Shown here piece after piece: positions 5,897 to 33,790 of a stretch of DNA of 40,652 nucleotides. The notes below the pieces were generated by a model. It was not told the origin of the DNA. It searched no databases and saw only the letters and a program-made list of their open reading frames with translations. The stretch covers positions 26,333 through 66,984 of the forward strand of contig JAJVHZ010000101.1 of assembly GCA_022072255.1 (NCBI GenBank). Direction: 5' to 3'. The position numbers and the translations under genes are program-made. Numbering within the stretch: the first letter of the stretch is position 1; each line of letters opens with the position of its first letter. This stretch comes from Gammaproteobacteria bacterium. Its GTDB lineage: Bacteria; Pseudomonadota; Gammaproteobacteria; JAJPIJ01.

Positions 5897-7873
5897 CTAC
5901 TTCCAGGCGATGCTCGCGTTCGCGGTGGATACCGCCGCGGACTTCGCACTCTCCGTGCCGGCGAGATTCACCGCGCTCACCGCGTAGGTGTGCGTTCCGC
6001 CAACGCCCTGATCGACGTAGAAGGTGCCACCGCGGGTGGAGATCGGCAGCCTGACGCCGTCGCGGTAGACGGCGTACTCGAGCACGTCGGCCTGGCCATT
6101 GTCGTTCCAGGAGATGAGCCAGGAGTCCAGCATCTTCTGGATCTTCAGGCCCGCCGGCACGGCCGGCGTGGACGCCGGCGGCGCGAACACCGCGTTACCG
6201 GTGTTGGTGAGCGTAGCCACCGAGCCGGCGCCGGAGAGGAAGGTCGGCGACTGGTACCTGTTGTCGAGCACCTTCGCCTCGGTGGTCGAGGAGAAGGCGA
6301 ACGCGATTGGCCGGTTGCTGCTGACGCCGCCGTTGCGCGCGATCACCGTGTTGTTGCTGGCGACCAGCCCCGTCATGTAGGAGTCGGAGGAATCCGAACC
6401 GATGAAGAAGCCGTTGATCGCCCCGGAGATGCCGTTGGCCACCATGACGACGTTGCTGTCGAAGGTGTTGCTGCCGCTGCCATAGCGATCGCGAATGCCG
6501 TAGATGTTGTTCTCGACATAGCCGCCCGAGGTGGCGACCGCGGAGTACTGCACGTCGATGCGGTTGCGGAACACGCGGTTGCCGTTGGCGCCGTTGGAGG
6601 TGCCGTTTTCCCAGCCGTCGAGGATGATGCCTCGGCCATCGTCCGAGACGATCTGGTTCTCGTAGATGTCGAAGTTGTCGGCCTTGGCCAGCAGCATGCC
6701 GTAGGGCGCCTTGCTGCCCTGGCTGCGCTTCTGCTGGATGCGGTTGCCGTAGATCTGCGAGCGGGGGGTGCTCGCGGTGGTCGTGCCGGTATAGATGATC
6801 TGCATGCCGCGGTGACCGTTGACCAGCACGTTGTCGTGGATGCTGATGCCGGCCGTGCCGCCGCCGCCGCTCACGTAGATCGGATCTGCGCCGCTGCCGT
6901 CGAGAGCTGTAGTGCCGCCCAGCACCTCGACGTAGTTGCGGTAGATCTGCGAGCCGGTGAACCGGTAGCCCTGCGAGTTCATGATGCCGTTGGACTGGAA
7001 GCCGGTCGTGCGGATCACCATGTCGTGCACGATGAACTTGCCGGGCGTGGAGGTCGAGCCGGCGAGGAAGATGGCCGGGGAGCCCGCCGTCTTGCCCGCG
7101 CCCTGCACCACCGTGCCGTTCATGATGGTGATGTTGTCGGCGAAGGTCGCCGTCTCGATGCCCCGCACGCGCGAGCTGCCCGCGGCGTTGTTGTAGGTGA
7201 TGGTGTAGCCGTTGAGATCGAAGGTGATGTCGCTCGCCGTGATCCGGACGGCCTGTCCCGCGGTCGTGAGATTGCCCGTCAGCTTGTAGACCTTGCCGGC
7301 CTGGTTCAGCGTCACCGTCGAGGTGCCGCCCGGCACCGCGATCTCCGCGCCGGTCGGCGGCGGCGGTTCAGGCGTGGGTGTCGGCGTCGGCGTCGGTGCC
7401 GGCGTGGGTGTCGGCGTCGGTGCCGGCGTGGGCGTGGGCGGGGGCGTCGGTGTCGGTGTCGGCGTCGGAGCAGGGGTGGGCGTGGGCGTTGGTGTCGGTG
7501 TCGGTGTCGGCGTCGGTGTCGATGCGGCGACGAAGGTCGCGGTGACCTTCGTGGTCCTGCTCATGGTCACGGAGCAGGTCGACGCCTTGCCGGTGCAGGC
7601 GCCGGACCACGCCGAGAAGGCGTAGCCGGCCTTGGGCGTGGCCTTCAGCGTGACAATGGTACCGCCGGCGAAACTCTTGCTGCACTCGCCGGCCAGCCAG
7701 GAGCGTCCGTCGATGGCGCCGCAATAGATCGCCTTTGGCGTCGAGGCCACGAGCCCCGTCGTGGGTTTGGTGACATTCAGCCAGTAGGTTGCCGCGTGGG
7801 CGCCCAGCGGCGCCAACAGCGCCGCAACGACTGCTGTCCGTACCATGGTGGCGCGTTGATGTTTTCTCGTCAT
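5897..7873 (-). CDS. Secreted right-handed beta-helix protein with InlB-B-like, Thr-Pro linker and FN3-like domains
   Basis: 658 aa from the ATG at 7873, which has AAGGACAGG just upstream and starts a clear signal peptide (basic MTRKHQR, hydrophobic core, cleavage near GAHA/AT, about residue 27). Residues ~28-115 resemble the InlB B/bacterial repeat fold and hold four Cys (51, 64, 93, 100) likely in two disulfides. Residues ~119-173 are an almost pure Thr-Pro linker. Residues ~178-560 repeat short strand units with Asn/Gly turns ([27 protein letters not shown]), typical of parallel beta-helix (PbH1) repeats as in polysaccharide lyases or adhesins. The last ~85 residues look like a fibronectin type III domain ([10 protein letters not shown] ... 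[10 protein letters not shown]). The enzymatic activity, if any, is unknown. Confidence 0.85.
7355..7519 (-). repeat. Thr-Pro-coding hexanucleotide repeat tract
   Basis: About 165 bp made of near-identical 6-bp units (GGCGTC / GGTGTC / GGCGTG on the plus strand) coding for about 27 Thr-Pro, Ala-Pro and Pro-Pro pairs. It is in frame within the beta-helix gene and forms its extended linker. Units that differ at the third base show it is not a recent pure expansion, but such a tract can still change length by slippage in steps of two residues without breaking the frame. Confidence 0.9.
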
Positions 7874-8256
7874 GTGGGACCTGTCCTTCTTGAATGTGTC
7901 GTTGGGTGTATTCGAGCCCGCATACAGCGGCCAGGACGCGGCCGTGCGATGCGTGCCCAGCGGTCCTTGGGTGAATGCGTAAGGCCTATAACGACCGGCT
8001 GTTGTTATGGTTGATAAGCCTACGGGACAGGGTGGCCGGCAAAGTGTGATGGCAGTCACGCGCAAGGCCGCCAATATCCTGACGCGTAGGACGCCGGATT
8101 TACGTTACGAATCCGTGCGTTGCGTATTGCCAGGGCGCGGCCGCCCGGTCTGTTCGGTCGGACTCGCTCCTACACACGAACGGCCTTCTAAAGTTTGCCT
8201 CCGTTCGCGCCGATCACCTGTCGAGGCCGCCGCTTCGGGGCACCCAAGGATCTGCA
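7874..8256. other. Divergent intergenic region
   Basis: 383 bp between the leftward beta-helix gene and the rightward gene at 8257. It should hold both promoters. The only structure I can point to is a small dyad, ATAAC at 7988-7992 and GTTAT at 8004-8008 with an 11-bp spacer, about 115 bp upstream of the beta-helix start, which could be an operator or part of a promoter. I cannot assign -35/-10 pairs with confidence. Confidence 0.35.
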
Positions 8257-13048: not shown

Positions 13049-13474
13049 CTACGATGCTGCGGTGCGCGCGGGGTCCTGCGGGTGCAGGAGATCGGCGAGG
13101 GTGCAGTTGTCCAGGTGCGCGAGAAACGCCGCCAAGGCGCCGGAGACCACGCCTGTCAGCCGGCAGTGCCCGGTCAGTGCGCAGCGATTGCAGGGATTGA
13201 AGCACTCCACGAGCCCGAAGTCCGGCTCGATCGCTCGCACCACCGCGCCGAGTCCGATCTGCGCCGGTCGGGCTGCCAGCCGCATGCCGCCGCCCTTGCC
13301 GCGCACGGTCTCGAGGAAGCCGGCGCGGCCGAGCTGGTGCGTGACCTTCATCAGGTGCGCCTCGGAGATGTCATAGGCGCGAGCCACCTCGGCGATGGTG
13401 CAAAGCCTTCCGGGGTGCTGGCCGACATACATCAGCAGCCGCAGCGCATAGTCGGTCATCACCGTCAGCCGCAT
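13049..13474 (-). CDS. nsrR: NsrR-type Rrf2-family nitric-oxide-sensing repressor
   Basis: 141 aa from ATG 13474, preceded by CCAGGAG. The N-terminal winged helix begins MRLTVMTDYALRLLMYVG and contains HLMKVTHQLGRAGFLETVRG, as in NsrR. The cluster region has Cys91, Cys95, Cys98 and Cys104 (ECFNPCNRCALTGHC), resembling the NsrR [Fe-S] loop with one more Cys than the usual three. The end, AAFLAHLDNCTLADLL, is also NsrR-like. NO destroys the cluster and relieves repression. It is divergent from the DUF2249 operon, whose promoter region carries a dyad like an NsrR site. IscR or another Rrf2 member is less likely from the spacing of the Cys residues. Confidence 0.85.
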   Translation of the reverse strand: MRLTVMTDYALRLLMYVGQHPGRLCTIAEVARAYDISEAHLMKVTHQLGRAGFLETVRGKGGGMRLAARPAQIGLGAVVRAIEPDFGLVECFNPCNRCALTGHCRLTGVVSGALAAFLAHLDNCTLADLLHPQDPARTAAS

Positions 13475-13688
13475 GCCGGGGGCTCCTGGGTTGCGCGCCG
13501 TGGACTGATGGGGCTGCCCCGGCACGGCGACCGAGGCTTCCGGATCGGCGCTGGCAGGCCGTCGACACCGGGATTCGTATGGGTAACGTGTTCGTTCAGC
13601 ATCTTCAGGTCATGATCCGATCCGGCCCACCCGGGGCAGGGGCCGCCCGCGCCGCCACCGGCGCCCGGGGCGGCCGGGCCCGGACGCC

Positions 13689-14785: not shown

Positions 14786-16702
14786 TCATGCCGGCGGTAC
14801 CGCCGGCTGCGGGGCCGGCGTCGGTGTGAAGGCATCGGAGAAACAGAACTGCTCGGCCAGCCCGTGCGTGAGAAAGTCCGGCACGGCGGCCTCCACCATC
14901 CGGGTGGAACCGCAGGCATAGACCTCGAAGCCGCTCAGGTCCGGGTGGTCGATCAGCAGTGCCTGATGCACGAGACCGCGGCGGCCCTGCCAGCCGGTGT
15001 CGTCATCGGCATCCGACAGCACCGGCACGAAGCGGAAGTTCGGATGGTCGTGCTGCCAGCGCTCGGCCAGATCGACCATGTACAGGTCCTTGCGTTCGCG
15101 CACGCCCCAGTAGAGCCACATCTGACGGCGGATGCCGCGCCGAAACGCGTCCTCGACGATGCTCTTGATGGGCGCGAAGCCGGTGGCGCCGGCGATGAAC
15201 AGGATGGGGCGCTCGCTCTCGCGCAGTGTGAATCGGCCTATCGGCCCCTCGAACTCGATCGCGTCGCCCGGACGCATGCGCTCGAAGACATGCGTGGTGA
15301 ACCGTCCGCCGGGCACCAGCCGCACGTGCAGCTCGATGCGGGCGTTGTCGTGCGGCGCGTTGGCGAACGAGAAGGCGCGCCTGGCGCCGTCCTCGAGCAG
15401 GATGTTGATGTATTGACCGGCCGTGAAGTCCACACGCTGGCCCTCGGGCAGCTTCACCCATAGCCGAATCACCTCCGGCGCGAGCCGCTCCATGCTCTCC
15501 ACGGTACCGCGCATGCGCTGCGCCGCATCGGCGGCGGACAGCGACTCGACGTCGACCTCCAGCTCGACGTCCTCGAGTGCCGTCGCGCAGCACATGAGCG
15601 TCTGGCCCTGTGCGCGCATCGCCTCGGTGAGCGCGGCCGGCTGGTAGTTGCCGTGATCCACGCGGCCATTGAGCACCGTGCACACGCACACGCCGCAGCC
15701 GCCGGCACGGCAGTCGTAAGGCAGCGTGAGGCCGGCACGCAGCCCGGCCTCGAGCAGCGTCTCGCCGGAGCGCGCCGCCACCGCCAGCGCCCCGGGGTGC
15801 ATCGTCAGGCGATGCGGCGCGGCCTGGCCGCCCCGTCGGGGCGGAAGCCACGGCGCGGCCGCCAGCACCGCGGTGGCGCCGAGCACCAGTGCCCACACGC
15901 CGTTCAGCGGCCAGACGTACACCAGCGGGTAGAGCGCGAGCAGGTACCAGTCGAAGTCGAGCACCGTCGGTGCCTGTGCCAGATGCGCCGGGCCGCCCTG
16001 GCTCACGACCGGCTGCACCAATGCCAGCAGCACCAGCATCACCGCCACGCTGATCGCGATCGGTCGCGGCGGCTGGGTGGTCGCCTTGGGCACGCGCTGT
16101 ACGTGCACCCACATCAGCAGCAGCGTGAGCAGCGGCACGCCGATGTGGATGAACACGAGCAGCGAGAACAGCCGGTCGCTGACACTGTGGTCGTAGATGA
16201 AATTGCGCACCAGCTTGCCGCCGAAGCCGGGCAGCCAGTCGAGCCACTCGAAGCTCGCCTGGGTGACGAACTGCGCCAGGCGGTCCCAGGGGAGCATGAA
16301 GCCGTTGACGCCGGCCGCGAATACCAGCCACACCAGTACGACGCCCGTCATCCACGAGAACCAGCGGAATCCGCGCATGCGATCGAACGCCCAGTAGCGC
16401 AGCAGGTGGATCAGCATCGTCACGACCATTGCGTCGGATGCGTAGCGATGGACGCTGCGAAGGATGCCGCCGGCGTAGCGCTGGCCATGGGTCAGCGCCT
16501 CGACCGAACGAAAGGCCCCTTGGACGCTGGTGTCGAAAAAGGCGTAAAGGTACAGACCCGTGCCGGCGACGATCCAGAACAGGAAGAAGGTCAGCGCGCC
16601 CAGGTGATACAGGGGATTGAGCTTGTCGCCGAAGGCGCGGTTGAACACCGCCTCGGCATGCATGAATCCCGTGCGCAGCAGCCGCTGGGGCCCGAACCTC
16701 AT
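14786..16702 (-). CDS. Cytochrome b / [2Fe-2S] ferredoxin / FAD-NAD(P) reductase fusion
   Basis: 638 aa in three modules. Residues ~1-215 are a bc1-type cytochrome b core with two His-x13-His pairs (His85/His99 and His186/His200) for two b hemes. Two more TM segments follow (~215-285). Residues ~298-385 are a plant-type ferredoxin with Cys331, Cys336, Cys339 and Cys371. The rest is a ferredoxin-NADP reductase-like unit with FAD motif RAFSFANAP and nucleotide motif GATGFAPIKS. It could feed NAD(P)H electrons into membrane hemes. ATG 16702 shares one base with the stop of the heme-copper gene (TGATG). It is the last gene of the operon, and its cytochrome b part is paralogous to that of gene 18637. 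Confidence 0.88.
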   Translation of the reverse strand: MRFGPQRLLRTGFMHAEAVFNRAFGDKLNPLYHLGALTFFLFWIVAGTGLYLYAFFDTSVQGAFRSVEALTHGQRYAGGILRSVHRYASDAMVVTMLIHLLRYWAFDRMRGFRWFSWMTGVVLVWLVFAAGVNGFMLPWDRLAQFVTQASFEWLDWLPGFGGKLVRNFIYDHSVSDRLFSLLVFIHIGVPLLTLLLMWVHVQRVPKATTQPPRPIAISVAVMLVLLALVQPVVSQGGPAHLAQAPTVLDFDWYLLALYPLVYVWPLNGVWALVLGATAVLAAAPWLPPRRGGQAAPHRLTMHPGALAVAARSGETLLEAGLRAGLTLPYDCRAGGCGVCVCTVLNGRVDHGNYQPAALTEAMRAQGQTLMCCATALEDVELEVDVESLSAADAAQRMRGTVESMERLAPEVIRLWVKLPEGQRVDFTAGQYINILLEDGARRAFSFANAPHDNARIELHVRLVPGGRFTTHVFERMRPGDAIEFEGPIGRFTLRESERPILFIAGATGFAPIKSIVEDAFRRGIRRQMWLYWGVRERKDLYMVDLAERWQHDHPNFRFVPVLSDADDDTGWQGRRGLVHQALLIDHPDLSGFEVYACGSTRMVEAAVPDFLTHGLAEQFCFSDAFTPTPAPQPAVPPA

Positions 16703-18108
16703 CACGCTCTCCCCGCGCGCAGCGCGCGCCAGACCACGACGAGGAACAGCAGTCCGCCCAGGATCGCCACCGCGCCGCCCGCGCCCATCAGTCCCATGCC
16801 GAAGACCTCGCCGGGGCTGCGCAGGACCTGCTCGGCGCCGGCGACCTTCCGCTGCACGCCGTAGCCGCCCGACCACACCAGACCGACGACGTGCATCAAC
16901 TGCCCGAGTCCGTATACATAAGGCTGGCTCACTGCGAGCCGCCCGCGCGGCCGGCCCCATCCGAGCCGCGGCAGCAGGTGATAGACCAGCCCCATCAGCG
17001 CCAGCGTGACGCCGACGATGCAGCCGTGGTAATGCGCGGGGATCTTCACGTTGCTGCCGGTGATCGTCATGCCGATGACTCCACCGGAGGCAAACAGCAG
17101 CATCGAGGCCAGCAGCGCCGCGCGCAACGGCCGGGCCTCCTCCGGGACGCCCTGCCGCGTGGCGAGTGCGATCGCCACCGCCAGCACCACCGGGAAGATC
17201 GCCAGTCCGCCGCCGATGCGCATGCCCCAGGTGTGCAGCACGCGATGCTCCACCGTCACCACGTCGTGCGCGAGGTACGCATACGGCGTGACGAACACCG
17301 CCGCCAGCGCGATCGCGAACAGCAGCAGGGCCACGCGCGGGCTCAGCGGCACGCGCCCGCCGCAGGCCTGCGCCAGCGACAGCCAGGCCACCAGCATCAG
17401 CAGCGTCCACGTGAACTGCAGCGCGTGGCCGCCGCCCCAGAACAGCACCTCCCAGTAGGCCTTGCCGTCCAGTGCGATGGGCACCACCGCGAGCGACCAG
17501 GCGAAGGCGGCAAGCGCGACCGCCGCGGACACCGCGGCCGCGTACAGCCCGAAGTGCAACGCCGCCGCGCCGTCGAGCGCGCCGCCCAGGCGCGGGGTCG
17601 AGGTCAGCGACCGGGCCACCAGCAGGACCGACGCCAGGGCGAAGACCGTGAGCCCGCCGAGGAACAGGCGCGATTCCAGGACCGGGATGTAGTTGGCCAT
17701 CACCGGTACGCCCGGGTCGAGGAAGGGCGCGAACGCCATCATCGCGGTGCCCGCACCGGCGCCGCCGAGCGCAATCCAGCCCCAGGCCTCGTGGCGGGGC
17801 CGGGCATTCAGGCTCCAGAGCATGCCGGCAATGGCGACGAACCACACCAGCACCGACAGGTCCACGTGGACCACCAGGGCGGTGCGGAAGAAATCCACCC
17901 CCGGCAGCCAGGCGTTTACCCCGGGGGTACGCGCCAGCACCAGCAGCACCGAGAACAGACCCGAGCCGAGCAGAGCCAGCATGCCCAGCCACAGCCAGCC
18001 GCGCGCGAGCGCCTGCCGGCTGGCTTCGAAGTGCAGTTCGTACTCGGCCGGCTTCGAAGGAAGTAGGGTGCGCCCGCGGGCCAGGATCGGGGATGCGGTG
18101 GCGTTCAT
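16702..18108 (-). CDS. Divergent heme-copper oxidase-superfamily subunit I, candidate NO reductase
   Basis: 468 aa, about 12 TM helices, with heme-copper landmarks: low-spin heme His81 (VVHVDLSVLVWF), helix VI metal ligand His228 (WGGGHALQFTW), and helix X His359 and His361 (AHYHGCIVG). Two features are unusual. The residue four after His228 is Phe, not the active-site Tyr of A and B oxidases. Where helix VII normally has His-His I find Ala280-His281-Asp282. Loss of the Tyr and a His-to-Asp change argue against O2 reduction and point to one of the alternative NO reductase groups. The start overlaps the preceding stop (ATGA). Confidence 0.8.
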   Translation of the reverse strand: MNATASPILARGRTLLPSKPAEYELHFEASRQALARGWLWLGMLALLGSGLFSVLLVLARTPGVNAWLPGVDFFRTALVVHVDLSVLVWFVAIAGMLWSLNARPRHEAWGWIALGGAGAGTAMMAFAPFLDPGVPVMANYIPVLESRLFLGGLTVFALASVLLVARSLTSTPRLGGALDGAAALHFGLYAAAVSAAVALAAFAWSLAVVPIALDGKAYWEVLFWGGGHALQFTWTLLMLVAWLSLAQACGGRVPLSPRVALLLFAIALAAVFVTPYAYLAHDVVTVEHRVLHTWGMRIGGGLAIFPVVLAVAIALATRQGVPEEARPLRAALLASMLLFASGGVIGMTITGSNVKIPAHYHGCIVGVTLALMGLVYHLLPRLGWGRPRGRLAVSQPYVYGLGQLMHVVGLVWSGGYGVQRKVAGAEQVLRSPGEVFGMGLMGAGGAVAILGGLLFLVVVWRALRAGRA

Positions 18109-18644
18109 TGCAGTGTTATGCCGCCTTTCTCGGTGTCGAAATCGATGACGAGAACCTGCGCCGGTGCCAGGTGCACGCGGCGCTCGAGCCTGTAGGCAAA
18201 GCCCTCGCTGCGTACGTCGTCGCGCAGGCGCACACTGATTTGCCGATCGCCGGCGCGGACCGGGATCCGCCGGTAGATCGCCGATGCGCCGTCGCGCGCC
18301 AGTCCGGAAGGCGCGGCCTCGGCGCGCACTACCGGCGCCCCGTCGATGTCGAGCTCCACCGTCACCGGCGAGCGCTCGCGCGGGCACTGCACCGGCGCGC
18401 GCATGTTCGGCGGCAGCTTCGCCAGCTCCTCGGGCGTCAGCGGCCGGCAGTCGCCGACGGGCTTGCCGGTGTGTACGAGGCTCAGCTTGATGAGCGCGAG
18501 GTCGGCGGCCAGGTGCCGGTACGGCGGCCAGTGCGAGAAGACGCCGACCGCAAGGGCGAAGAGTCCGTAAAGCACGGTCTGCCCGACCCACGCGCGCAGG
18601 CCGCGCGGCCCCCCCGCGGCCGGAGACTTTAAAGATTCAGCCAT
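18105..18644 (-). CDS. 179-aa single-pass membrane protein, putative accessory subunit
   Basis: I do not recognise the family. It has a short cytoplasmic N-terminus, one TM helix (about 22-38, VLYGLFALAVGVFSHWP), then a periplasmic part with two Cys (66 and 87, in DCRPLTPEELAKLPPNMR and QCPRERSPV) and a beta-rich end. No CuA, heme-binding CxxCH or Fe-S motif is present. It overlaps the gene before it by 8 bp and the heme-copper gene after it by 4 bp, so it is probably a structural partner of that subunit I in the place a subunit II would hold. An NsrR-like dyad covers its start codon. Confidence 0.7.
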   Translation of the reverse strand: MAESLKSPAAGGPRGLRAWVGQTVLYGLFALAVGVFSHWPPYRHLAADLALIKLSLVHTGKPVGDCRPLTPEELAKLPPNMRAPVQCPRERSPVTVELDIDGAPVVRAEAAPSGLARDGASAIYRRIPVRAGDRQISVRLRDDVRSEGFAYRLERRVHLAPAQVLVIDFDTEKGGITLQ

Positions 18645-18654
18645 GATGCATCTT
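18632..18654 (-). promoter_or_regulatory. Possible NsrR-like dyad over a start codon
   Basis: Plus-strand arms AAGATTCAGCC and TGATGCATCTT flank one base and are symmetric at 8 of 11 positions. The right arm matches the NsrR half-site well. It lies inside the operon across the start of gene 18105-18644, so it may be chance or an internal control point. Confidence 0.3.
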
Positions 18655-20220
18655 CGACGTTGGACCGGAAAAATCATTGATCTTGGACAAGCGCTCGCGC
18701 ATCGAGGCGACCGCGGCCTCGAGCACGGCCTCCTCCTCGGCGTCGGCCTGCACCAGGTCTACCTTCGCGCGCGGCACGCTGGCGCGCAGTTGCGGCGCAC
18801 GCGTGCCCGCCAGCCGCTCGGCAGTCCAGCGTGCACCGAGGCGGAACGCGCAGCCGCCGTCGCGGCAGCTCGCGACCAGCACCCCCGCGGCGCCGTCACG
18901 CAGCGCGTACTCGACGAAGGACGGCGCCAGCTGACCGGTGCAGATGAGCGGCAGCACGAGGACGTCGGGGGCGGTGAGGCAGCGCGCATCGGCGCCCTGC
19001 GCACAACCGAAGACCACGATCGGTCGCGCCCCCCGCATCGTCTCGAGCCCGCTCTGCAGCCGCCGCCGCAGAGTGCCGACCGGCAGCTGCGGCATGTCGA
19101 TCCCGGTCACCAGGGCCGCAGTGCTGCGAAAGGGCGTCGATGACGGACAGGCGCCGGCGCAGATCCCGCAGCTCGCGCACAGGTCTGGATGCACCTGCGC
19201 CAGCTCGCGGCCGACCCGACGATCCGGGTGCGGCACCATCGTGATCGCCGCGAACGGGCAGTCCGCGAAACAGCGCCGGCAGCCGTTGCAGTTGGCCGGG
19301 TCGACCACCGCCACCGGCGCCCGCGCCGCGCTGCCGCCGAGGCGCGGCACTGCCGCCGGCAGGAAGGGCAGGGCGAGCAGGGCGCCGAACGTCCCCAGCG
19401 TCAGCACCCAGGTGAAGCCGGCGGAGGTCGCGTACATCAGCGGATGCACGAACAGCACGAGCCAGTCGAGCGCCAGCGGGGTCGGTATCCGCGTCAGATC
19501 CGCCGGGCCCTGGCTCGCCACCGGCGCCGCGACCGCCAGCGCGAGCAGCGCAGCGGACGTGCCGATCGCCAACGTACGCGGCGGGAACACGGCGGCCCGC
19601 GTGATCCGCTGGATGTGGAACCACAGGCCGAACAGCAGCAGTAGCGGCACGCCGATGTGCACGAAGACGAAGAGAGAGAACAACCGGTCGCTGACCGATG
19701 CACTGCCCAGAAAGTTGCGCGCCAGCGGGTTGGCGAGCAACGGCAGCGCATCGAGCCACTCCGCGGTAGCGATGGCCGAGAACTGTCCCAGGCGATCCCA
19801 GTTCAGCCAGAAGCCACCGATCGCGCTCACCGCGACCAGCGGCAGGAGGGCGACGCCTGTCAGCCACGAGTAGCGGCGGAAGTGGCGCCAGCGGCCGTGC
19901 AGGGCTTCGCGCAGCAGGTGCAGGGCGGTGAACAGCACGAACGCATCGGTGGCGTAGCGGTGCAGGCTGCGCATCAACCCTCCCGGCGACCACGGTGCGC
20001 GCGACATGCGCACGATCGAGTCGTAGGCACCGCTCACCGAGGTGTCGAACACGGCGTACAGCCAGATCCCGGAGAGCGCGAGCAGCCAGATCGCGAGAAA
20101 TGCCAGGGCGCCGAGCTGGCGCAGCGGATTGGATCCGGCGCCGAATGCCCGGTCGAAGCACCGCTCCACGCGGCGCCACGCAGACAACGCGCCGGCACTC
20201 GGAGACTCCGACACCTTCAT
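18637..20220 (-). CDS. Cytochrome b / 2[4Fe-4S] / MvhD-like triple fusion
   Basis: 527 aa. Residues ~1-215 form a bc1-type cytochrome b with His87/His101 and His188/His202 (both His-x13-His). Two more TM segments follow. Residues 311-321 (CNGCRRCFADC) and 348-358 (CASCGICAGAC) are two bacterial-ferredoxin [4Fe-4S] sites. Residues ~400-475 resemble the MvhD/FrhD delta-subunit fold (IVVFGCAQGADARC, PLICTGQLAPSFVEYALRDG, VLVASCRDGGCAFRLG) with Cys406, 414, 427, 452 and 457. MvhD normally links hydrogenase to heterodisulfide reductase. Here it would connect a soluble or Fe-S donor to membrane b hemes. ATG 20220 is used; the longer frame begins at a TTG. Confidence 0.85.
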   Translation of the reverse strand: MKVSESPSAGALSAWRRVERCFDRAFGAGSNPLRQLGALAFLAIWLLALSGIWLYAVFDTSVSGAYDSIVRMSRAPWSPGGLMRSLHRYATDAFVLFTALHLLREALHGRWRHFRRYSWLTGVALLPLVAVSAIGGFWLNWDRLGQFSAIATAEWLDALPLLANPLARNFLGSASVSDRLFSLFVFVHIGVPLLLLFGLWFHIQRITRAAVFPPRTLAIGTSAALLALAVAAPVASQGPADLTRIPTPLALDWLVLFVHPLMYATSAGFTWVLTLGTFGALLALPFLPAAVPRLGGSAARAPVAVVDPANCNGCRRCFADCPFAAITMVPHPDRRVGRELAQVHPDLCASCGICAGACPSSTPFRSTAALVTGIDMPQLPVGTLRRRLQSGLETMRGARPIVVFGCAQGADARCLTAPDVLVLPLICTGQLAPSFVEYALRDGAAGVLVASCRDGGCAFRLGARWTAERLAGTRAPQLRASVPRAKVDLVQADAEEEAVLEAAVASMRERLSKINDFSGPTSKMHHG

Positions 20221-20281
20221 GACACGCAACCCCGCCGGCGCGTGGGGCTGTCGGTTTCGGCCGCCGCGCCCGCGCGCCGGC

Positions 20282-21142
20282 TCAGGCTGAGTGCACCGGG
20301 TTCGCCACCGGCGCCGCAGCCGTGTCGTGCCGGACGCGCCGTTGCTCCCGGCGCTCGCGCCAAAGGTACACGGCGACCGTGGTGAAGAACGCGAGCCCGC
20401 CCAGCAACTCGAAGATCAACCCCCATTTGTAGCGGTACTCGCCGGTCTCCGGGTCGTAGACCGTACACAGGATGCGCACGCGTTCCACGATCTCGCCGAG
20501 CGAGAAGGTCGTGCCGGACGGCGGCGCGCCGAGTACCAGTTGGCGCAGCACGGCGCCCAGGGCCTCGGTGGTCAGGCGGTCGTTGTAGACCTGAGTGTAG
20601 ATGCGGCCCTCGCCATCGAGCACGGTCACGCCGACGATGTGATCGAACCCGGCCGGCGTCTCCACCCAACTGAATCCGAATGCGCGCGTCAGCGCCTCCA
20701 CGTCGCTGGCCCGCGGGCTCCCGAACTCCCAGTTCGGATAATCGATGCCGTTTTGCGCGGCGAACGCGCGCAGCGCCTGGGGCGTGTCGAATGGCTGGTT
20801 GAAGCCGATGCTCAGTACGTTGAAATGGTCGGGGCCGAGCAAGCGACCCAGGCCGCTGACCGCCGCGTGCAGGGTGCGTGTCTGTGTCGGACAGATCGTG
20901 AAGCATCCCGTGTAGATGAAGCTCACCAGCAGCGGCTTGCCGCGGTAGTCCGCCAGGCGAACCGGCCGCTCCCGGCGGTCCAGAAACGTGAAGTCCGCAG
21001 GCGTCGTGCCGATCGCCGTCTGGCTGGCGCGCAATGCCGCGGTCTGATCGAGGCGGGGGACGCCGTCGGCGTGTGTCCGCGGCGCGAATGAGAGGCCGAG
21101 ACCGAGGATCGCCGCGGTCAGAACCTCAGCGCAGCGCCGCAT
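20282..21142 (-). CDS. SCO1/SenC/PrrC-type copper chaperone with C-terminal TM helix
   Basis: 286 aa. Signal-like N-terminus, then a thioredoxin-fold SCO domain with Cys80 and Cys84 (GCFTIC) and His168 (FDHIVGV), the copper-binding set that loads CuA or CuB. After the domain (about residue 200) there is an extension with a TM helix near 245-268 (LIFELLGGLAFFTTVAVYLW), unusual because most SCO proteins are anchored at the N-terminus. The start ATG lies inside the end of ctaB (17-bp overlap). Its place in the operon suggests it matures the CuA subunit at 23772. Confidence 0.87.
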   Translation of the reverse strand: MRRCAEVLTAAILGLGLSFAPRTHADGVPRLDQTAALRASQTAIGTTPADFTFLDRRERPVRLADYRGKPLLVSFIYTGCFTICPTQTRTLHAAVSGLGRLLGPDHFNVLSIGFNQPFDTPQALRAFAAQNGIDYPNWEFGSPRASDVEALTRAFGFSWVETPAGFDHIVGVTVLDGEGRIYTQVYNDRLTTEALGAVLRQLVLGAPPSGTTFSLGEIVERVRILCTVYDPETGEYRYKWGLIFELLGGLAFFTTVAVYLWRERREQRRVRHDTAAAPVANPVHSA

Positions 21143-22025
21143 CGATCGCCACCGCCACGATGAGCACCGACAACTGCGCCATCGAGGCGAAGAAGGCCGA
21201 CATCGCGGTACGGCGCTGCGGATCGCGCGCCAGGGCGTGCGTGCGGCGCAGGAAGTAGGCACCGCCGGCGAGCGCGCCCACCAGGTATGCAGGCCCCGCG
21301 CCGAACGCGCCGGGCAGCAGCGAGGCGGCGACCAGGGCGATCGTGTTCAGGTGCACGATGCGCGCGGCGCGTTGCGTGCCGACCACCACCGGCAGCATCG
21401 GGATGCCCGCGGCCGCGTAGTCCTCGCGGTTGGCGATGGCCAGGCTCCAGAAGTGCGATGGCGTCCAGAGGAACAGTACCAGTGCGAGCAGCAGCGGCAG
21501 CGGTCCGAGCGACGGGTCCGCGGCGGCAGCGCCGGTGAGCACGGCGAAGCTGCCGGCGAGGCCGCCGATGACGATGTTGAGCCAGGTGCGGCGCTTCAGT
21601 ACCACCGTGTAGACCACCGCGTAGGTGAACGCGCCGAGGAACAGGTACAGCGCCGCGGCGCCGTTGAGCGTGTACCACGTCGCCGCCACCGACGCCGCGA
21701 GGAGCCCGAGGATCAGCGCCATCCAGCCCGCGCCCGGATGCAGGGCGCCGCTGGCGAAGGCGCGGCTGCGGGTGCGCTTCATCAGCCGATCACTGTCGGC
21801 CTCGATGAACTGATTGAAGGCCCCGGCGCTGGCCGATGCGACCAGCACCGAGAGCGCCATCACCAGCACCTGCCAGAGCGCGGGCGCCGGCGCCCGCGCG
21901 ACCGCCAGGCCGCCCAGAGCGGTGACCATGATCAGCATGCCGATGCGCAGCTTGAATACGCCGATCACCGTGCGCCATCCTGGCACAGCGGCAACGACTT
22001 CGGATCGGGCCAGTGCGGTGCTCAT
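21126..22025 (-). CDS. ctaB: Heme O synthase (protoheme IX farnesyltransferase)
   Basis: 299 aa, UbiA family, about nine TM helices. The first Asp-rich motif is NQFIEADSDRLMKRTRSR (71-88) and the second region is WTPSHFWSLAIANREDY, both typical of CtaB/CyoE. It farnesylates heme b to heme O, the precursor of heme A. AAGGAG precedes the ATG. It lies 35 bp after the B-type-like subunit I gene, so that enzyme probably uses heme O or A type cofactors. Confidence 0.93.
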   Translation of the reverse strand: MSTALARSEVVAAVPGWRTVIGVFKLRIGMLIMVTALGGLAVARAPAPALWQVLVMALSVLVASASAGAFNQFIEADSDRLMKRTRSRAFASGALHPGAGWMALILGLLAASVAATWYTLNGAAALYLFLGAFTYAVVYTVVLKRRTWLNIVIGGLAGSFAVLTGAAAADPSLGPLPLLLALVLFLWTPSHFWSLAIANREDYAAAGIPMLPVVVGTQRAARIVHLNTIALVAASLLPGAFGAGPAYLVGALAGGAYFLRRTHALARDPQRRTAMSAFFASMAQLSVLIVAVAIDAALR

Positions 22026-22060
22026 GGCTTCACTCCTTCAGCATCGGGCGCCGCCGCGGA

Positions 22061-23761
22061 TCAACTCAGCCCCCAGACCGTCGACAGATACTTCCAGTTG
22101 ATGAAGTAGTAGAGGACGAATGCCACGAGGAAGACCATCGCAAGCATGAAGGTCCCGGGCGCGGCGAAGCCCGCCGACCCGTAGGTCTGTGCGACCACGG
22201 TCGGTGCCGCACGCGGAACCGGCGTGAAGCGCGGGCTCTCCGCGCCGCGGTCGAGCCGCTTGCCCCACAGCAGCGAGCCGACGGTGACGTAGATGAAGAT
22301 CGCGCCGCCGGCGATGGCGGCCATGCCCCCGATGCCGACCAGCCCCATCATGAGGTAGGCAGCGCCGGGCCATTCATAGGCGAGCGCGTGCCCCTGGAAG
22401 GCCATGTCCCAGTGCCGGCGCGAGACGCCCAGCGTGCCCGCGCCCATCATCACCAGGGCGAAGAAGTACATCGAGAAGCCGAACAGGTACGGCTGCCACT
22501 GCGCGAGCTTGGGCGCGATCATCTCGCGCCGGAACAGCACCGGGATGAGATAGTAGGTGAGCGCCATGAAGGTCAGCGTCGTGCCTATCACCACCGTGGC
22601 GTGGAAATGCCCCGGCACGTAGATGGTGTTGTGGATGATCATGTTCAGCTGCTCGGTGCCCATCATCACGCCCGAGATGCCGCCGAGGAAGCCGAAGCCG
22701 ATGATGGCGATGAACACGCCCGAGAAGGTCGGGTTGCCCCAGGGCGCCTTGCGCAGCCACTCGAACAGGCCCTTGGTGTAGCCCTTCTGCCGCTGCGCGA
22801 CCTCCATCGCGCCGGGGATGGTCAGGCCGTGGATCATCGAGGCGAGCACCGCGAAGTACATGAAGTAGCTGGTATTGAGGACCTTCCAGCCGGTGGACAG
22901 GCCCGGGTCGGCGAGCAGGTGGTGGGCGCTCGCGAGCTGCAGGAACAGGATGTAGAGCAGGAACGCCGTGCGGCTGACGCGCTCGCTCATCGGCTTCGCG
23001 CCGAAGGCGATGGCCGCCACCAGGTACCAGACGGAAATGTGCGCGGCGACGTTGATCTGCTGCGAGGAGTGGCCTAGGGCCCACCAGATCGTGCGGTAGG
23101 CGAGCGGGTCCACCTGGTCGATCACGCCCATGGACTTCAGCCAGGTCGGGATCAGGATGATCGCGCCGGAGACGAGCGTGAACACCGCGATGATGGCGGC
23201 GGTGATCGCCCCGAAGGTCACCAGCGGCACGGAGCCCTCGTAGGTCTTCTCGTTCTTCGCCACCACCAGGGTCCCGAAGAACACGAAGCAGGCGATGAGC
23301 GCACCGACCGCGAACACTATGAGGCCGAGGTAGAAGTTCGGCTCGGCCATCATCGGCACGTAGGAGGTCATCATCACGCTGGAGGCGCCGCGGAACACCG
23401 CGATGTTGTTGACCACCGAGCCGATCAGCATGAGTGCGAAGGCCAGCCACGCGATTCTCGGCGTCGCTATCCGGCAGCGCAGCAGCGTCGAGGCGCAGAA
23501 GTACAGCACCGCGATCTCGAAGAAGATGATCCAGAAGATCAGCATGTCCAGACCGTGCGCCGTGAGGACCATGTAGAACGTCTGGGCCTGCAGCCAGTGC
23601 ACCGCCGGCCAGCGCGTCAGCACGACGCCGATGGCGAGCAGGCCGCCGATCAGCAGCCACACCACGCCGACGAAGGCATTGGCCTTGATCAGCCACTCGG
23701 CCTGGTATTCGAACTGGAGCCCGGAACGCGGGCAGGTACGGTAGGTGGTCGCGGTGCTCAT
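22061..23761 (-). CDS. B-type-like heme-copper subunit I lacking the active-site Tyr (eNOR-like NO reductase candidate)
   Basis: 566 aa. It follows Thermus ba3 subunit I through helices VI-X: helix II His69 (TAHGLDM), helix VI His231 (WWALGHSSQQ), helix VII His280-His281 (SAHHLLADPG), and helix X His385 and His387 (PGHFHATV). In ba3 the helix VI motif is His-Pro-Ile-Val-Tyr, where the Tyr is cross-linked and needed for O2 reduction. Here it is His-Ser-Ser-Gln-Gln, so the Tyr is Gln235. That change is expected for an NO reductase such as the group called eNOR. GAGGGGAG lies before the ATG. The CuA subunit gene ends 10 bp upstream. Confidence 0.85.
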   Translation of the reverse strand: MSTATTYRTCPRSGLQFEYQAEWLIKANAFVGVVWLLIGGLLAIGVVLTRWPAVHWLQAQTFYMVLTAHGLDMLIFWIIFFEIAVLYFCASTLLRCRIATPRIAWLAFALMLIGSVVNNIAVFRGASSVMMTSYVPMMAEPNFYLGLIVFAVGALIACFVFFGTLVVAKNEKTYEGSVPLVTFGAITAAIIAVFTLVSGAIILIPTWLKSMGVIDQVDPLAYRTIWWALGHSSQQINVAAHISVWYLVAAIAFGAKPMSERVSRTAFLLYILFLQLASAHHLLADPGLSTGWKVLNTSYFMYFAVLASMIHGLTIPGAMEVAQRQKGYTKGLFEWLRKAPWGNPTFSGVFIAIIGFGFLGGISGVMMGTEQLNMIIHNTIYVPGHFHATVVIGTTLTFMALTYYLIPVLFRREMIAPKLAQWQPYLFGFSMYFFALVMMGAGTLGVSRRHWDMAFQGHALAYEWPGAAYLMMGLVGIGGMAAIAGGAIFIYVTVGSLLWGKRLDRGAESPRFTPVPRAAPTVVAQTYGSAGFAAPGTFMLAMVFLVAFVLYYFINWKYLSTVWGLS

Positions 23762-23771
23762 TGTGCTCCCC

Positions 23772-24311
23772 TCACTTGACGTAGAGCCGCCCGACCATCT
23801 GGTGATGGCCGATGCCGCAGAACTCGTTGCAGACGATGGAATAGGTGCCGGACTGATTCGGCGTGACCGTCACGACGTGTTCGAAACCCGGCACGACCTG
23901 GATGTTGATGTTCACGGGCTGCAACGAGAAGCCGTGGTTGTAATCCATCGACGTCAGATGCAGGCGGTAGGACTTGCCCTTCTCCAGCTCGAGGATGGGC
24001 CAGAAGCTCCACAGCCGCGCGACGATGAAGACGTCGCTGCCCGGCGGCGGGGCGACCACCGGGATCTTCTGATCGGTCTCCGTGCGCACCGTCCACTTGT
24101 CGACCACGGCCTGGGCCTTGGCGGTGTACTGCTCGGGGGTCGTGCGGTAGGTCTCGGTCGAGAGATTCTGCTTGCCCCAGATATGCCAGCCGATCATCAT
24201 GAAGAACATGATGAGGCACCAGGTCAGCGCAATCGCGATCCAGGTGCCTTCGACGCGATCGATCGGGTGCTTGTACCACAGGCGCTCGGTCGGGGGGAGG
24301 ATGGCGCTCAT
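23772..24311 (-). CDS. Heme-copper enzyme subunit II with CuA site
   Basis: 179 aa, one N-terminal TM helix (about 23-42, TWIAIALTWCLIMFFMMIGW) and a periplasmic cupredoxin domain. CuA ligands are complete: His126 (DYNHGF) and CNEFCGIGHHQM with Cys161, Cys165, His169 and Met172. The short length and single TM resemble ba3-type subunit II. It should accept electrons from a periplasmic cytochrome c or cupredoxin and pass them to subunit I encoded next. GAGGAG is eight bases before the ATG. Confidence 0.9.
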   Translation of the reverse strand: MSAILPPTERLWYKHPIDRVEGTWIAIALTWCLIMFFMMIGWHIWGKQNLSTETYRTTPEQYTAKAQAVVDKWTVRTETDQKIPVVAPPPGSDVFIVARLWSFWPILELEKGKSYRLHLTSMDYNHGFSLQPVNINIQVVPGFEHVVTVTPNQSGTYSIVCNEFCGIGHHQMVGRLYVK

Positions 24312-24348
24312 CGTCTTGCTCCTCGTAGGTTCGTGGCTGCGGCGACGG

Positions 24349-24504
24349 TCACTTGGCCGCCGGAACGGTCAGGATGTCGATGACGCCCCAGAGGTTGTAG
24401 AGCACCATCGGGATCAGAACACCCAGGAACAAGAGCAGAAACGGGTTGTCCAGCAGTTTCTGCATGAACGGGACCGGCGCGTTTTCATCCTCGTGCTGAT
24501 TCAT
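24349..24504 (-). CDS. 51-aa single-TM subunit (subunit IIa-like)
   Basis: MNQHEDENAP start chosen because GAGGAG sits seven bases upstream; an ATG 27 bases earlier has no such site. A polar N-terminus is followed by DNPFLLLFLGVLIPMVLYNL, one TM helix, and a short tail. Size and pattern resemble the small extra helix subunits of ba3-type enzymes. It is the first gene of the operon, 37 bp before the CuA subunit gene. Confidence 0.75.
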   Translation of the reverse strand: MNQHEDENAPVPFMQKLLDNPFLLLFLGVLIPMVLYNLWGVIDILTVPAAK

Positions 24505-24924
24505 GGCATGCTCCTCTTCATTGATATGCACTGGCGTGTGGACGGCGGCGGGCCATCCCGCCCCTCCGTCGATGTATGGGGACGCGCGAGCCGCGCCGCC
24601 GGGAATGCCCCAGGGTACAGTCGGTTTCCGGCTCGAACCGGGCCAGGAGGCGAACGCGGAAGACGGCCGACGCCGTCGCGGTGCTTGCGGCCGGACTCAT
24701 GGACCCTGACCTCCCCAGGCTCGTGGATGCGCCAAGTCTAGGGCGCGGACCGCGCGGGTCGCCTTGATAGACGTCAAGAACAGCGACGACTCCGCGCCGG
24801 GCCGGCGGCAGTGGCCCCGTCGCGAGGAGAAGGCGGGGCCCGGTGACCGCCGGGAAGACCTGGCCGCACTTCCCGTTCTCCGGCCAGAAAGCCGATAATC
24901 CGCACCAACAAGAAAAGCCTCGAT
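24505..24924. other. Divergent region between the heme-copper operon and the ctaA pair
   Basis: 420 bp without a credible gene. It holds the Dnr-like promoter reading leftward (24735-24777). If that promoter is used, the operon's untranslated leader is about 225 nt. No rightward promoter for the ctaA pair is evident. Confidence 0.5.
24735..24777 (-). promoter_or_regulatory. Predicted Dnr/FNR class II promoter of the heme-copper operon
   Basis: Perfectly matched box TTGAT-AGAC-GTCAA (24764-24777; the arms are dyad-symmetric at four of five positions). On the minus strand a TAGACT hexamer (4 of 6 matches to TATAAT) begins exactly 23 bp after the box. On the plus strand no -10-like hexamer occurs at that spacing, so leftward transcription is favoured. 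Confidence 0.6.
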
Positions 24925-25842
24925 ATGAGCCTTGCCAAGGCGACAAACTGGACTGGGCGGCTGCTCGGCCTCGCGATCGTGCTGTCGCTGGCGGTCGTCG
25001 TGCTGAGCGCTTATCTGCGCATCTCGGCGGCGGGCCTGGGATGCGTGGACTGGCCGGCCTGCTACGCGCGGCTCAGCGCCGTGCAGGAGGGCGCGACCGG
25101 TCCCGCGCGGGCAATGCATCGCGCCACGGCCTCCACGGTCGGCCTCATCGCGCTCGGCTACCTGCTCGTCGCGCTCCGGCGCAGGCGCGACCGTGCCGCG
25201 GCCACGGCGCTGGTCGCACTCACGGCGCTGCTCGCGGTGGTCGGCCTGCACACGCCGTCGCCGCTCGAACCATGGGTGACGTTGATCAACGTGGCCGGCG
25301 GCATGGCCCTGCTCGCGGTCTATGGATGGCTGTGGCTGCGGCCCGAGGCCGCAACGACCAGGGGCTGGAGCGCGCGCCGGCTCGCCGCCGCCGCCGGCGT
25401 GGCCGTGGTATATGGCCAGATCGCGCTCGGCGCGTGGGCCTCGGCGCATTTCGCGGAGCCTGCGTGCCCCGGACTGCCGTGTCCGCGCGAGACCCCGACG
25501 GCGAGCATCGCTGACGCCTTCGATCCCGCACGGCGGTTGACCGCCACGGCGGGGCGCGTCACGGTCGACGACGCATCGGTGCTCGTGCAGCGGGCACACC
25601 GGCTGGGCGCGTTCCTCACATTCCTTTATATATGCATGCTGGTGTTGTACGCGCCGGCCCGTACGGGGGCGTCGCGCCGGGCTGGCCTCGCGGTCCTTGC
25701 GCTCCTGCTCGCACAGGTCGCGCTCGGCGTCGGGGCCAGCCTGTCGAACTATCCGATGTGGGCGGCGGTCGCCCACAACGCGCTCGCGGCGGTTCTCCTG
25801 CTCGCCGTCGTGCGCCTGTATCACGTGTACGCCCGGGACTGA
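24925..25842 (+). CDS. Divergent CtaA/COX15 paralogue (Cys-pair type)
   Basis: 305 aa, eight TM helices. It has both extracytoplasmic Cys pairs of the Bacillus CtaA class (Cys40/Cys46 in GCVDWPACY; Cys181/Cys186 in ACPGLPC) and three of the four heme-ligand His (65, 225, 284). The Glu three residues before the first His, essential in Bacillus CtaA, is Arg62, and the expected second His is Asn122 (TLINVAGG). The N-terminal half may therefore not work as in heme A synthase. It is 3 bp from a second, intact-looking CtaA, so it may be an accessory subunit or catalyse a different heme change. The ribosome site is weak (AAGAAAAG). Confidence 0.8.
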   Translation: MSLAKATNWTGRLLGLAIVLSLAVVVLSAYLRISAAGLGCVDWPACYARLSAVQEGATGPARAMHRATASTVGLIALGYLLVALRRRRDRAAATALVALTALLAVVGLHTPSPLEPWVTLINVAGGMALLAVYGWLWLRPEAATTRGWSARRLAAAAGVAVVYGQIALGAWASAHFAEPACPGLPCPRETPTASIADAFDPARRLTATAGRVTVDDASVLVQRAHRLGAFLTFLYICMLVLYAPARTGASRRAGLAVLALLLAQVALGVGASLSNYPMWAAVAHNALAAVLLLAVVRLYHVYARD

Positions 25843-25845
25843 CTC

Positions 25846-26895
25846 ATGACTGAACTTGCTCGAGCCGCCCGCCGTGGTCCCGTCGCCGCGTGGCTGCTCG
25901 TGTGCTGCGCGCTCGTCTTCGCGATGATCGTGCTCGGGGGCGTCACCCGACTGACCCGTTCGGGCCTCTCGATCGTCGAGTGGCAGCCGATCGTGGGCGC
26001 GATCCCGCCGTTCACCGAACGGCAGTGGGAGGCGGAGTTCGAGAAGTACAGGCAGACACCCGAGTACCAGAAGGTGAACTACGGGATGAGCCTCGCCGAG
26101 TTCAAGGAGATCTTCTGGGTGGAGTACGCCCACCGCCTGCTTGGCCGGACGATCGGTTTCGCGTTCCTCGTGCCGTTCCTGTACTTCCTGATACGCAGGC
26201 GGCTCGGGCGCGAGCTCGTGCCGAGGCTCGTGGGACTGTTCGTGCTGGGAGGACTGCAGGGGGCGCTCGGATGGTACATGGTCGCCAGCGGGCTGGTGGA
26301 CGACCCGCGCGTGAGCGCATACCGCCTCACGGCGCACCTCGGGCTGGCGGTGATCATATACGGCTACATGTTCCTGGTGGCGCTCGACCTGCTCTACCCG
26401 CAGGCGCGGCCCGCGCCCGCGCCGGCCCGGCGCTACGCCCTGGCGCTGACCGCTCTGGTGTTCGTCACCATCCTCGCAGGCGGCTTCGTCGCCGGCACGC
26501 GCGCGGGCTTCGTGTTCAACACCTGGCCGCTGATGTACGGGCGCCTCGTGCCCGAGGGTCTTTATGCCCTGAGCCCGTGGTGGCTCAATCTCTTCGAGAA
26601 CGTCGCCACGGTCCAGTTCAACCACCGCTGGCTCGCCTACGCCGTCGTGATCGCGACGGTGCTGCTGTGGGCGGCCATACGCCGCACGGGCGCAACGCCG
26701 CGCGCGCGAACGGCGGCACACCTGCTGCTCGCTGCCGTGGTGCTGCAGTTCGGGCTTGGCATTGCAACCCTGCTTGCGGTCGTTCCGGTGCCGCTCGGCG
26801 CCGCCCACCAGGGCGGCGCGTTGCTGGTCCTGACCGCGGCGCTCTTCCTCAACCACGCGCTGCGCAAGGGACCGGCGACCAACCCGTTCCGGTAA
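25846..26895 (+). CDS. ctaA: Heme A synthase, COX15/CtaA (alphaproteobacterial/mitochondrial class)
   Basis: 349 aa with eight TM helices. Landmarks: GGVTRLTRSGLSIVEWQP (31-48), Glu93 and His96 in WVEYAHRLLG, RLTAHLGLAV, the middle RAGFVFNTWPLM, FNHRWLAY and GAAHQGGALL, so the Glu and all four ligand His are present. There are no extracytoplasmic Cys pairs, as in the mitochondrial/alphaproteobacterial class. It oxidises heme O to heme A. It is cotranscribed with the divergent paralogue and, with CtaB, supplies heme for the heme-copper enzymes of the adjoining operon. Confidence 0.9.
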   Translation: MTELARAARRGPVAAWLLVCCALVFAMIVLGGVTRLTRSGLSIVEWQPIVGAIPPFTERQWEAEFEKYRQTPEYQKVNYGMSLAEFKEIFWVEYAHRLLGRTIGFAFLVPFLYFLIRRRLGRELVPRLVGLFVLGGLQGALGWYMVASGLVDDPRVSAYRLTAHLGLAVIIYGYMFLVALDLLYPQARPAPAPARRYALALTALVFVTILAGGFVAGTRAGFVFNTWPLMYGRLVPEGLYALSPWWLNLFENVATVQFNHRWLAYAVVIATVLLWAAIRRTGATPRARTAAHLLLAAVVLQFGLGIATLLAVVPVPLGAAHQGGALLVLTAALFLNHALRKGPATNPFR

Positions 26896-28457: not shown

Positions 28458-29172
28458 CGATGTGGCGGCCCTGCACCGATATGAGTCCCGCCTCGATGAG
28501 ATCGTGCTGGACGCGGGAGAGGGTCTCGGGCGTCACGTTCAGGCGCGAGGCGATGATCAGCTTGGATGCAGGCAGGTCGATCTCCGCGCGCCCCTCGGCG
28601 ACGTCCTCGCCGGTGCCGGCGGATTGCAGCAGAAACCCGATCAGGCGCTCGGCGCTGGAGCGCAGCGAGTACGCCTCCACGTCCAGAACCAGCGCATGCA
28701 GGCGCATCGACAGGCCTGCCATCATGCGGCGGGCGGCACCCGGGTCCCGCGCCAGCAGTTCGAACAGCGGTTCCCTGGGGATACGCAGCAGGCACGTGTC
28801 GGCAAGCGCCTGCGCGTAGACCGGGTAGGGCTTCTCCGCGAACAACACCGCTTCGCCGAAGCTCTGTTGCGCGCCGCGCAGCGAGATCACCTTCTCGGCG
28901 CCGCGGGTGGCGGCGAAGGCGAGCTTGATCTGGCCGTCGAGGACCATGTAGAAGCCGCTCGGCATGTCGCCCTGGCGAAAGAGGACCTCCCCCTTCTTCA
29001 GCCGGATCACCTCCGCGCCGGCCGCGATGGCGGCAAGCGACTCGGGTCCGACATTCGAGAAGATGGGCATCGCGGCCAGCGCACCCGGGATGTTCACCGC
29101 CGATCCGTCGCTCGCCGCGCCGTCGACCGCGGGCGTCTGGCCCGGGGCACCGTCGGAGGGTGTCGAGGACAT
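28417..29172 (-). CDS. dnr: Dnr-type Crp/Fnr regulator
   Basis: 251 aa. Residues ~36-150 form the cyclic-nucleotide-type sensor domain (GEVLFRQGDMPSGFYMVLDG; SFGEAVLF), then a dimerisation helix and a winged helix. The recognition helix has ETLSR (216-220), the FNR/Dnr residues that read TTGAT. The FNR N-terminal Cys cluster is absent (only one Cys, in ADTCLLR), so it is not an O2-sensing FNR and fits Dnr, a heme-based NO sensor. The first ~30 residues are a low-complexity tail; the true start may be later. It lies 6 bp after the TonB receptor gene and overlaps the convergent gene 27192 by 41 bp. As third gene of the nirS operon it should be self-activating. Confidence 0.85.
   Translation of the reverse strand: MSSTPSDGAPGQTPAVDGAASDGSAVNIPGALAAMPIFSNVGPESLAAIAAGAEVIRLKKGEVLFRQGDMPSGFYMVLDGQIKLAFAATRGAEKVISLRGAQQSFGEAVLFAEKPYPVYAQALADTCLLRIPREPLFELLARDPGAARRMMAGLSMRLHALVLDVEAYSLRSSAERLIGFLLQSAGTGEDVAEGRAEIDLPASKLIIASRLNVTPETLSRVQHDLIEAGLISVQGRHIVIHDVRRLREFRP

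Positions 29173-31504: not shown

Positions 31505-33790
<2,286 letters not shown>

Follow-up and report, generated by a model that had tools for sequence, protein, structure and literature searches.

The locus studied here raises the question of what two paralogous cytochrome b fusion proteins do on either side of a protein of the heme-copper oxidase (HCO) type. It lies in a 40,652-nucleotide (nt) stretch (the window) of contig JAJVHZ010000101.1 from a Gammaproteobacteria bacterium (GCA_022072255.1). Four genes occupy minus-strand positions 20220-14786, in the order cytb-FeS, the gene of a 179-amino-acid (aa) protein, the gene of an HCO-like protein, and cytb-FNR. As an earlier note on this DNA described, the two fusions stand on either side of the 179-aa protein and the HCO homologue, and the codons of adjacent genes overlap, by ~8 nt (cytb-FeS/179), 4 nt (ATGA, 179/HCO) and 1 nt (TGATG, HCO/cytb-FNR). 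That note proposed a single membrane complex in which the HCO-like protein reduces nitric oxide (NO). It missed the rest of the operon: upstream, the genes go on as far as 24504 and include another HCO, intact and of NO reductase (NOR) type, at 22061-23761. The four genes are the 3' tail of this nine-gene operon (24504-14786, minus strand), whose 5' part encodes a 51-aa membrane protein, a CuA subunit II (COX2), a B-type subunit I (COX1B), COX10 and SCO1. Judged by gene content and order across genomes, they are the conserved tail of a larger NO reductase operon of many soil and wastewater bacteria. The best reading of the four genes is an electron-input (or activation) module dedicated to an NO reductase of the eNOR type, in preference to one complex centred on the HCO-like protein.

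The B-family CuB and heme ligands of COX1B (H69, H231, H280, H281, H385 and H387) were kept in 82/82 sequences, and the active-site Tyr was replaced by Gln235 in all 82. The closest solved structures were of the B-family, 7deg and ba3. The CuA motif of COX2 was complete in 80/80, and this cupredoxin subunit II gene lies directly upstream of COX1B. According to Table A4 of PMC8756737, active-site residue Q is the hallmark of eNOR, N that of sNOR and D that of gNOR; eNOR is reported as biochemically characterised in PMC11388526. We assigned COX1B/COX2 to the eNOR type because the CuB and heme ligands are intact, Gln235 replaces Tyr, and a CuA subunit II is encoded upstream. The pair (22061-24311) is likely the operon's NO reductase. 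It resembles eNOR in its B-type subunit I with Gln for Tyr and in the cupredoxin subunit II directly upstream; unlike eNOR, the operon here continues with the module of cytb-FeS, 179-aa protein, HCO-like protein and cytb-FNR. Assignment of COX1B to sNOR was rejected, since Gln rather than Asn occupies the Tyr position (82/82). The same genome encodes another divergent HCO with the motif GHVFIN and Asn at the Tyr position (sNOR/nNOR-like; G000:C19:59292-60623, L004), and two CcoN-type oxidases besides it.

The HCO-like protein scored 47.8 bits against Pfam COX1. Its predicted model (pLDDT, the predicted local distance difference test, 89) has the HCO subunit I fold and matched heme-copper oxidase subunit I structures (ba3, cNOR, cbb3 and others) with VIA Z of 27-31. 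Sequence searches gave no match to the protein in the PDB and no match to its family among plasmids. Across the family (n = 105), H81, H228, Q231, H359 and H361 were (nearly) invariant. The CuB pair H280-H281 of COX1B aligned to A277-Y278 of the HCO-like protein in both profile-profile and MAFFT alignments, and D282 paired in both with a non-ligand Asp of COX1B. H281-D282, the His-Asp heme-copper centre of the earlier note, is literally present but does not form a metal site; position 281 is His in 38/105 and position 282 is Asp in 58/105. The Tyr-equivalent position is F232, with Phe in 99/105. From these alignments, both heme sites and one CuB ligand (H228) are kept and two CuB ligands are lost. 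The protein thus shares its fold and heme ligands with HCO subunit I and differs in the CuB His pair, which has become Ala-Tyr; a catalytic heme-copper reductase would have all three CuB ligands. Lacking two of the three, it is unlikely to reduce NO. Its assignment to gNOR was also rejected, because Phe occupies the position equivalent to Tyr, and the Asp follows the CuB pair at a distance of four residues.

The HCO-like gene was missing from several operons that retain COX1B, and lone homologues in other genomes often stand beside COX10, CtaA or an aa3 operon. Loci in which such lone, CuB-less homologues adjoin these genes are L049, L058, L062, L063, L065, L066, L067, L070 and L071. The HCO-like protein is dispensable, because it is absent from some operons and has lone homologues beside heme A/O synthesis genes. 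Genomes that carry it tend to have NirS (37/46). The neighbours of the lone homologues and this tendency point to a helper role rather than to NO reduction, and the protein is probably a helper in heme handling, assembly or relay.

The description of cytb-FeS and cytb-FNR as paralogous di-heme cytochrome b fusions was confirmed. Their b domains are 48% identical and share H-x13-H twice, FDTSV-x-GA and RS-x-HRY, and the soluble modules differ as the earlier note had stated. cytb-FeS (527 aa) matched Pfam Cytochrome_B (E 2e-18), Fer4 (2[4Fe-4S]) and FlpD/MvhD (E 4e-13). cytb-FNR (638 aa), whose true start is the ATG at 16702 and not the GTG at 17992, matched Cytochrome_B (E 1.7e-19), the [2Fe-2S] domain Fer2, FAD_binding_6 (flavin adenine dinucleotide, FAD) and NAD_binding_1. 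In known systems, FlpD serves as a [2Fe-2S] docking domain. All 12 Fe-S Cys of cytb-FeS were kept in 91/91 homologues, and the Fe-S Cys of cytb-FNR in 79/79. The heme His and the DW motif were invariant in the homologue alignments, and the P-side quinone motif was conserved as DW[FY] where PEWY stands in bc1/b6f. The conserved domains imply the proposed electron entry from NAD(P)H and by an Fe-S route; a thiol donor, also proposed, found no support. In the 179-aa protein, C66 and C87 were invariant; a PDB search gave no match below E 1e-2, and Pfam gave weak scattered matches only.

In a tree of 61 b domains, those of cytb-FNR formed one clade (support 100/100), so one duplication produced cytb-FNR. 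A first impression that cytb-FNR is a genus-specific oddity was overturned by a b-domain scan of named genomes. Three loci (L161, L168 and L194) have a rearranged operon in which cytb-FNR stands ahead of cytb-FeS and has its own copy of the 179-aa gene, which suggests that a cytb and the 179-aa protein form a functional unit. A lone cytb-FNR homologue in genome G085 (L106:8982-10970) is remote from the operon. In locus L041 (5881-6711), another cytb is joined to a diflavin reductase (flavin mononucleotide-FAD-NADPH), with NnrS nearby. This fusion and cytb-FeS have an 873-nt perfectly identical stretch in common, with the b domain inside the repeat, and a full-length cytb-diflavin fusion was absent from all other sampled genomes. 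We did not use it as an independent recruitment of an NADPH module, as recent duplication and assembly error are indistinguishable here.

Conservation was assessed in 369 independently sampled genomes of the class; of these, 32 carried cytb-FeS, 46 the HCO-like gene and 74 NirS. NirS was present in 29/32 genomes with cytb-FeS versus 45/337 without it (Fisher p 1e-19, kinship not corrected for). In deeper lineages of this sample, the order COX2-COX1B-COX10-SCO1-cytbFeS-179-HCO was common and cytb-FNR was rare. The scan of named genomes yielded 80 loci, picked by similarity to the query and hence biased to close relatives, mainly in Burkholderiales, Rhodocyclales and Lysobacterales. In 43 of the 80, the order of eight genes was exactly preserved. 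COX1B, cytb-FeS, the 179-aa gene, the HCO-like gene and cytb-FNR occurred together in 59 of the 61 named loci of at least 14 kb; the genes are therefore linked, which answers the co-occurrence check that the earlier note had asked for. A plasmid of the alphaproteobacterium Defluviimonas carries a minimal COX2-COX1B-CyoE-SCO-cytbFeS-179 set without the HCO-like gene and cytb-FNR. Five genomes have a cytb-FNR locus that lacks or does not reach full COX1B, and all five encode COX1B somewhere. In Defluviimonas, Thermus and Thermomicrobium, a small gene resembling the 51-aa gene immediately precedes COX2.

In our judgement there is an even chance that the four genes are the accessory electron-input half of the eNOR-type NO reductase operon of a nirS denitrifier. 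NO would be reduced by COX1B/COX2 and not by the HCO-like protein, and each cytb fusion would act as a transmembrane electron wire with a cytoplasmic entry. Electrons would pass in cytb-FNR from NAD(P)H through FAD and [2Fe-2S] to the two b hemes, and in cytb-FeS from an FlpD-docking donor through 2[4Fe-4S] to the two b hemes. From there they would reach a P-side quinone-like site (DW[FY] for PEWY) and pass on to the quinone pool, the reductase or both. The 179-aa protein would be the periplasmic partner of a cytb, and the HCO-like protein, with hemes and without a normal CuB site, a relay or assembly helper. Electrons moving outward from NAD(P)H would run strongly downhill in redox and field; the module would thus trade energy conservation for fast NO removal. 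An elaboration, a hitherto undescribed supercomplex fed by NAD(P)H and Fe-S in which the eNOR-type reductase is permanently joined to both cytochrome b reductases, with the copper-less HCO paralogue as a heme-only electron relay, is unlikely.

Several points weigh against an electron-input role. The direction of flow, the acceptor, complex formation, the role of the HCO-like protein and the electron path to eNOR are parts that we infer. The eNOR class of COX1B is a putative one, set by active-site residues. COX2 contains CuA and might just accept electrons from cytochrome c, and the operon contains no Rieske or cytochrome c partner linking the P side of the cytb fusions to CuA. The cytb-FNR homologue of G085 stands alone, and in Ca. 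Accumulibacter vicinus UBA5574 (L177) the cytb pair is unlinked from eNOR. Finally, SCO1, COX10 and the lone HCO homologues beside CtaA/COX10 fit an assembly role equally well.

Such an assembly or activation role is doubtful as the main function, and it is the alternative that survives best. The cytb fusions would carry cytoplasmic reducing power to the periplasm and mature or reactivate the copper and heme sites of eNOR, with the CuB-less HCO as a heme-handling assembly factor. CcoG, NosR and NirI are thought to play such parts for other enzymes. SCO1 and COX10 lie within the operon, lone HCO homologues adjoin COX10/CtaA or aa3 operons, and the 179-aa protein, a transmembrane (TM) helix followed by a beta-sandwich, has broadly a FixH-type layout. 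Similarity to FixG, NosR or FixH was absent from the Pfam matches (Fer4_5, FixG_C, FixH), and two full NAD(P)H/Fe-S input chains look excessive for this task. It is distinctly unlikely that cytb-FNR (and with it cytb-FeS) works on its own as a quinol/NAD(P) oxidoreductase that keeps redox balance and is tied to denitrification through co-regulation only. The conserved P-side quinone motif, the lone homologue in G085, the separate cytb pair in Ca. Accumulibacter vicinus and the re-oxidation of quinones ascribed to an Accumulibacter 'novel quinol reductase' (PMC4930944 and PMC9041414) would fit this; elsewhere linkage to the NOR operon is near-strict, and electron transfer from quinol to NAD(P)+ on the N side would be strongly uphill. 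The model of the earlier note, one complex with the HCO-like protein (16702-18108) as its NO-reducing part and the two cytochromes as electron donors, is very improbable: it agrees with the HCO fold, the conserved heme ligands, the tight gene overlaps and the NO context, but two of three CuB ligands are absent, the gene is missing from several operons where COX1B stays, and the operon itself encodes another HCO, intact and of NOR type.

The proposed electron-input module differs in composition from known systems. Like the cytochrome b of b6f/bc1, the cytb fusions have four heme His and a subunit IV-like part, and their best structural-sequence matches were cyt b6. Unlike it, they have DW[FY] for PEWY and C-terminal cytoplasmic reductase domains, and the operon is without a Rieske or cytochrome c1/f partner (domain searches found no Rieske gene within 14786-24504). 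Modules of the QmoB/QmoC and HdrA-MvhD types couple FlpD/MvhD and 2[4Fe-4S] to a membrane cytochrome b, like cytb-FeS; cytb-FeS belongs to another cytochrome b family, is a single fused protein, and is without an HdrA flavin subunit.

The Accumulibacter protein, also termed an unusual cytochrome b/b6, is discussed in PMC4930944 and PMC9041414, citing Garcia Martin 2006. The Ca. Accumulibacter homologue of cytb-FNR in L177 is 61% identical in the b part and 60% in the reductase part, and the 'quinol reductase' is probably a member of the cytb-FNR family. In contrast to the operon here, these papers treat it as a lone quinone-oxidising protein for anaerobic tricarboxylic acid cycle flux, and connect it neither with a paralogous cytb-FeS nor with an NO reductase operon. 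Ca. Accumulibacter vicinus UBA5574 is listed without Nor in PMC6446978; its genome contains a full-length eNOR-type COX1B homologue that is 70% identical (L177, G369:C148:27160-28851).

A literature search for a cytb-FlpD-HCO complex, with a 2024 PNAS paper on eNOR/sNOR/gNOR/nNOR outside its scope, found only a table entry in PMC8756737 for an open reading frame with cyt b6, DMSOR-beta and FlpD (RME88945.1). The whole assembly was not found described. eNOR was already published, and so was the Accumulibacter protein that is probably of the cytb-FNR family, which qualifies the earlier note's remark that it knew of no described complex. Together, the cytochrome pair, the 179-aa protein and the CuB-less HCO may be a novel conserved module of NOR operons; we regard this as candidate novelty, not proof. 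NO reductases set the release of nitrous oxide by denitrifiers, and eNOR-type enzymes are often overlooked or labelled oxidases. A conserved module that supplies NO reduction with electrons from NAD(P)H or by an Fe-S route would, if real, change bioenergetic models of these denitrifiers and give the long-discussed Accumulibacter 'quinol reductase' a concrete setting. The retention of a copper-less heme-copper paralogue in many genomes is a testable question in HCO evolution.

Table 1. Features of the window, with positions, strand and basis of assignment or remark.
Feature	Position	Strand	Basis or remark
Rrf2 regulator, NsrR/RirA-like	13049-13525	-	Below both model cut-offs
cytb-FNR: di-heme cytochrome b + [2Fe-2S] + FAD + NAD(P) domains	14786-16702	-	Pfam
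cytb-FNR FAD- and NAD(P)-binding domains	14885-15505	-	Pfam
cytb-FNR [2Fe-2S] Fer2 domain	15578-15781	-	Pfam
cytb-FNR cytochrome b domain	15818-16702	-	Pfam, tree
HCO-like protein: H81, H359, H361 (heme ligands) and H228; A277-Y278 for CuB His pair	16702-18108	-	Alignments, predicted model
179-aa protein: one TM helix + beta-sandwich, invariant C66, C87	18105-18644	-	Without Pfam family
cytb-FeS	18637-20220	-	Di-heme cytochrome b (b6 + subunit IV-like) + 2[4Fe-4S] + FlpD/MvhD
cytb-FeS FlpD/MvhD domain	18679-18984	-	Pfam
cytb-FeS 2[4Fe-4S] ferredoxin domain	19132-19305	-	Pfam
cytb-FeS cytochrome b domain	19336-20220	-	Pfam; matches cyt b6 structures
SCO1/SenC copper chaperone; start codon uncertain, open frame to 21262	20282-21142	-	Pfam
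COX10/CyoE heme O synthase (UbiA family)	21126-22025	-	Pfam
COX1B, B-type HCO subunit I, likely NOR (eNOR) type	22061-23761	-	H231, H280, H281 present; Gln235 for Tyr
Subunit II (COX2), complete CuA motif H126, C161, E163, C165, H169, M172	23772-24311	-	CuA residues 80/80
51-aa single-helix subunit, operon gene 1, motif LLDNPFLLLxLG...	24349-24504	-	Sequence
FNR/Dnr-type box TTGATAGACGTCAA, 1 mismatch	24764-24777	+	Operon's upstream region; candidate site
Crp/Dnr-type regulator	28417-29172	-	Domain search
nirS, cytochrome cd1 nitrite reductase	31505-33688	-	Upstream of operon, same strand; proposed functional partner

The NO context proposed in the earlier note is strongly supported by nirS, both in the window and in most cytb-FeS genomes, and by FNR/Dnr boxes; its choice of the HCO-like protein as the reductase is not, and COX1B/COX2 is likelier. 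The window contains 13 FNR/Dnr-like boxes with up to two mismatches, versus 3.2 expected. Among relatives, such a box (at most one mismatch) lies within 600 nt upstream of COX2 in 30/73 operons versus 55/1460 control stretches. In the nirS product, the d1 domain is preceded by two cytochrome c-type domains, and no copper nitrite reductase (NirK) was found in the organism's own genome. Between nirS and the Crp/Dnr-type gene lies a TonB-dependent receptor gene (29179-31503, minus strand). Divergent from the operon is a pair of CtaA/COX15 (heme A synthase) genes lying side by side (24925-26895, plus strand); the first has the weaker Pfam score. The protein encoded at 5897-8074 (minus strand) contains a low-complexity region and an InlB B-repeat domain that is divergent.

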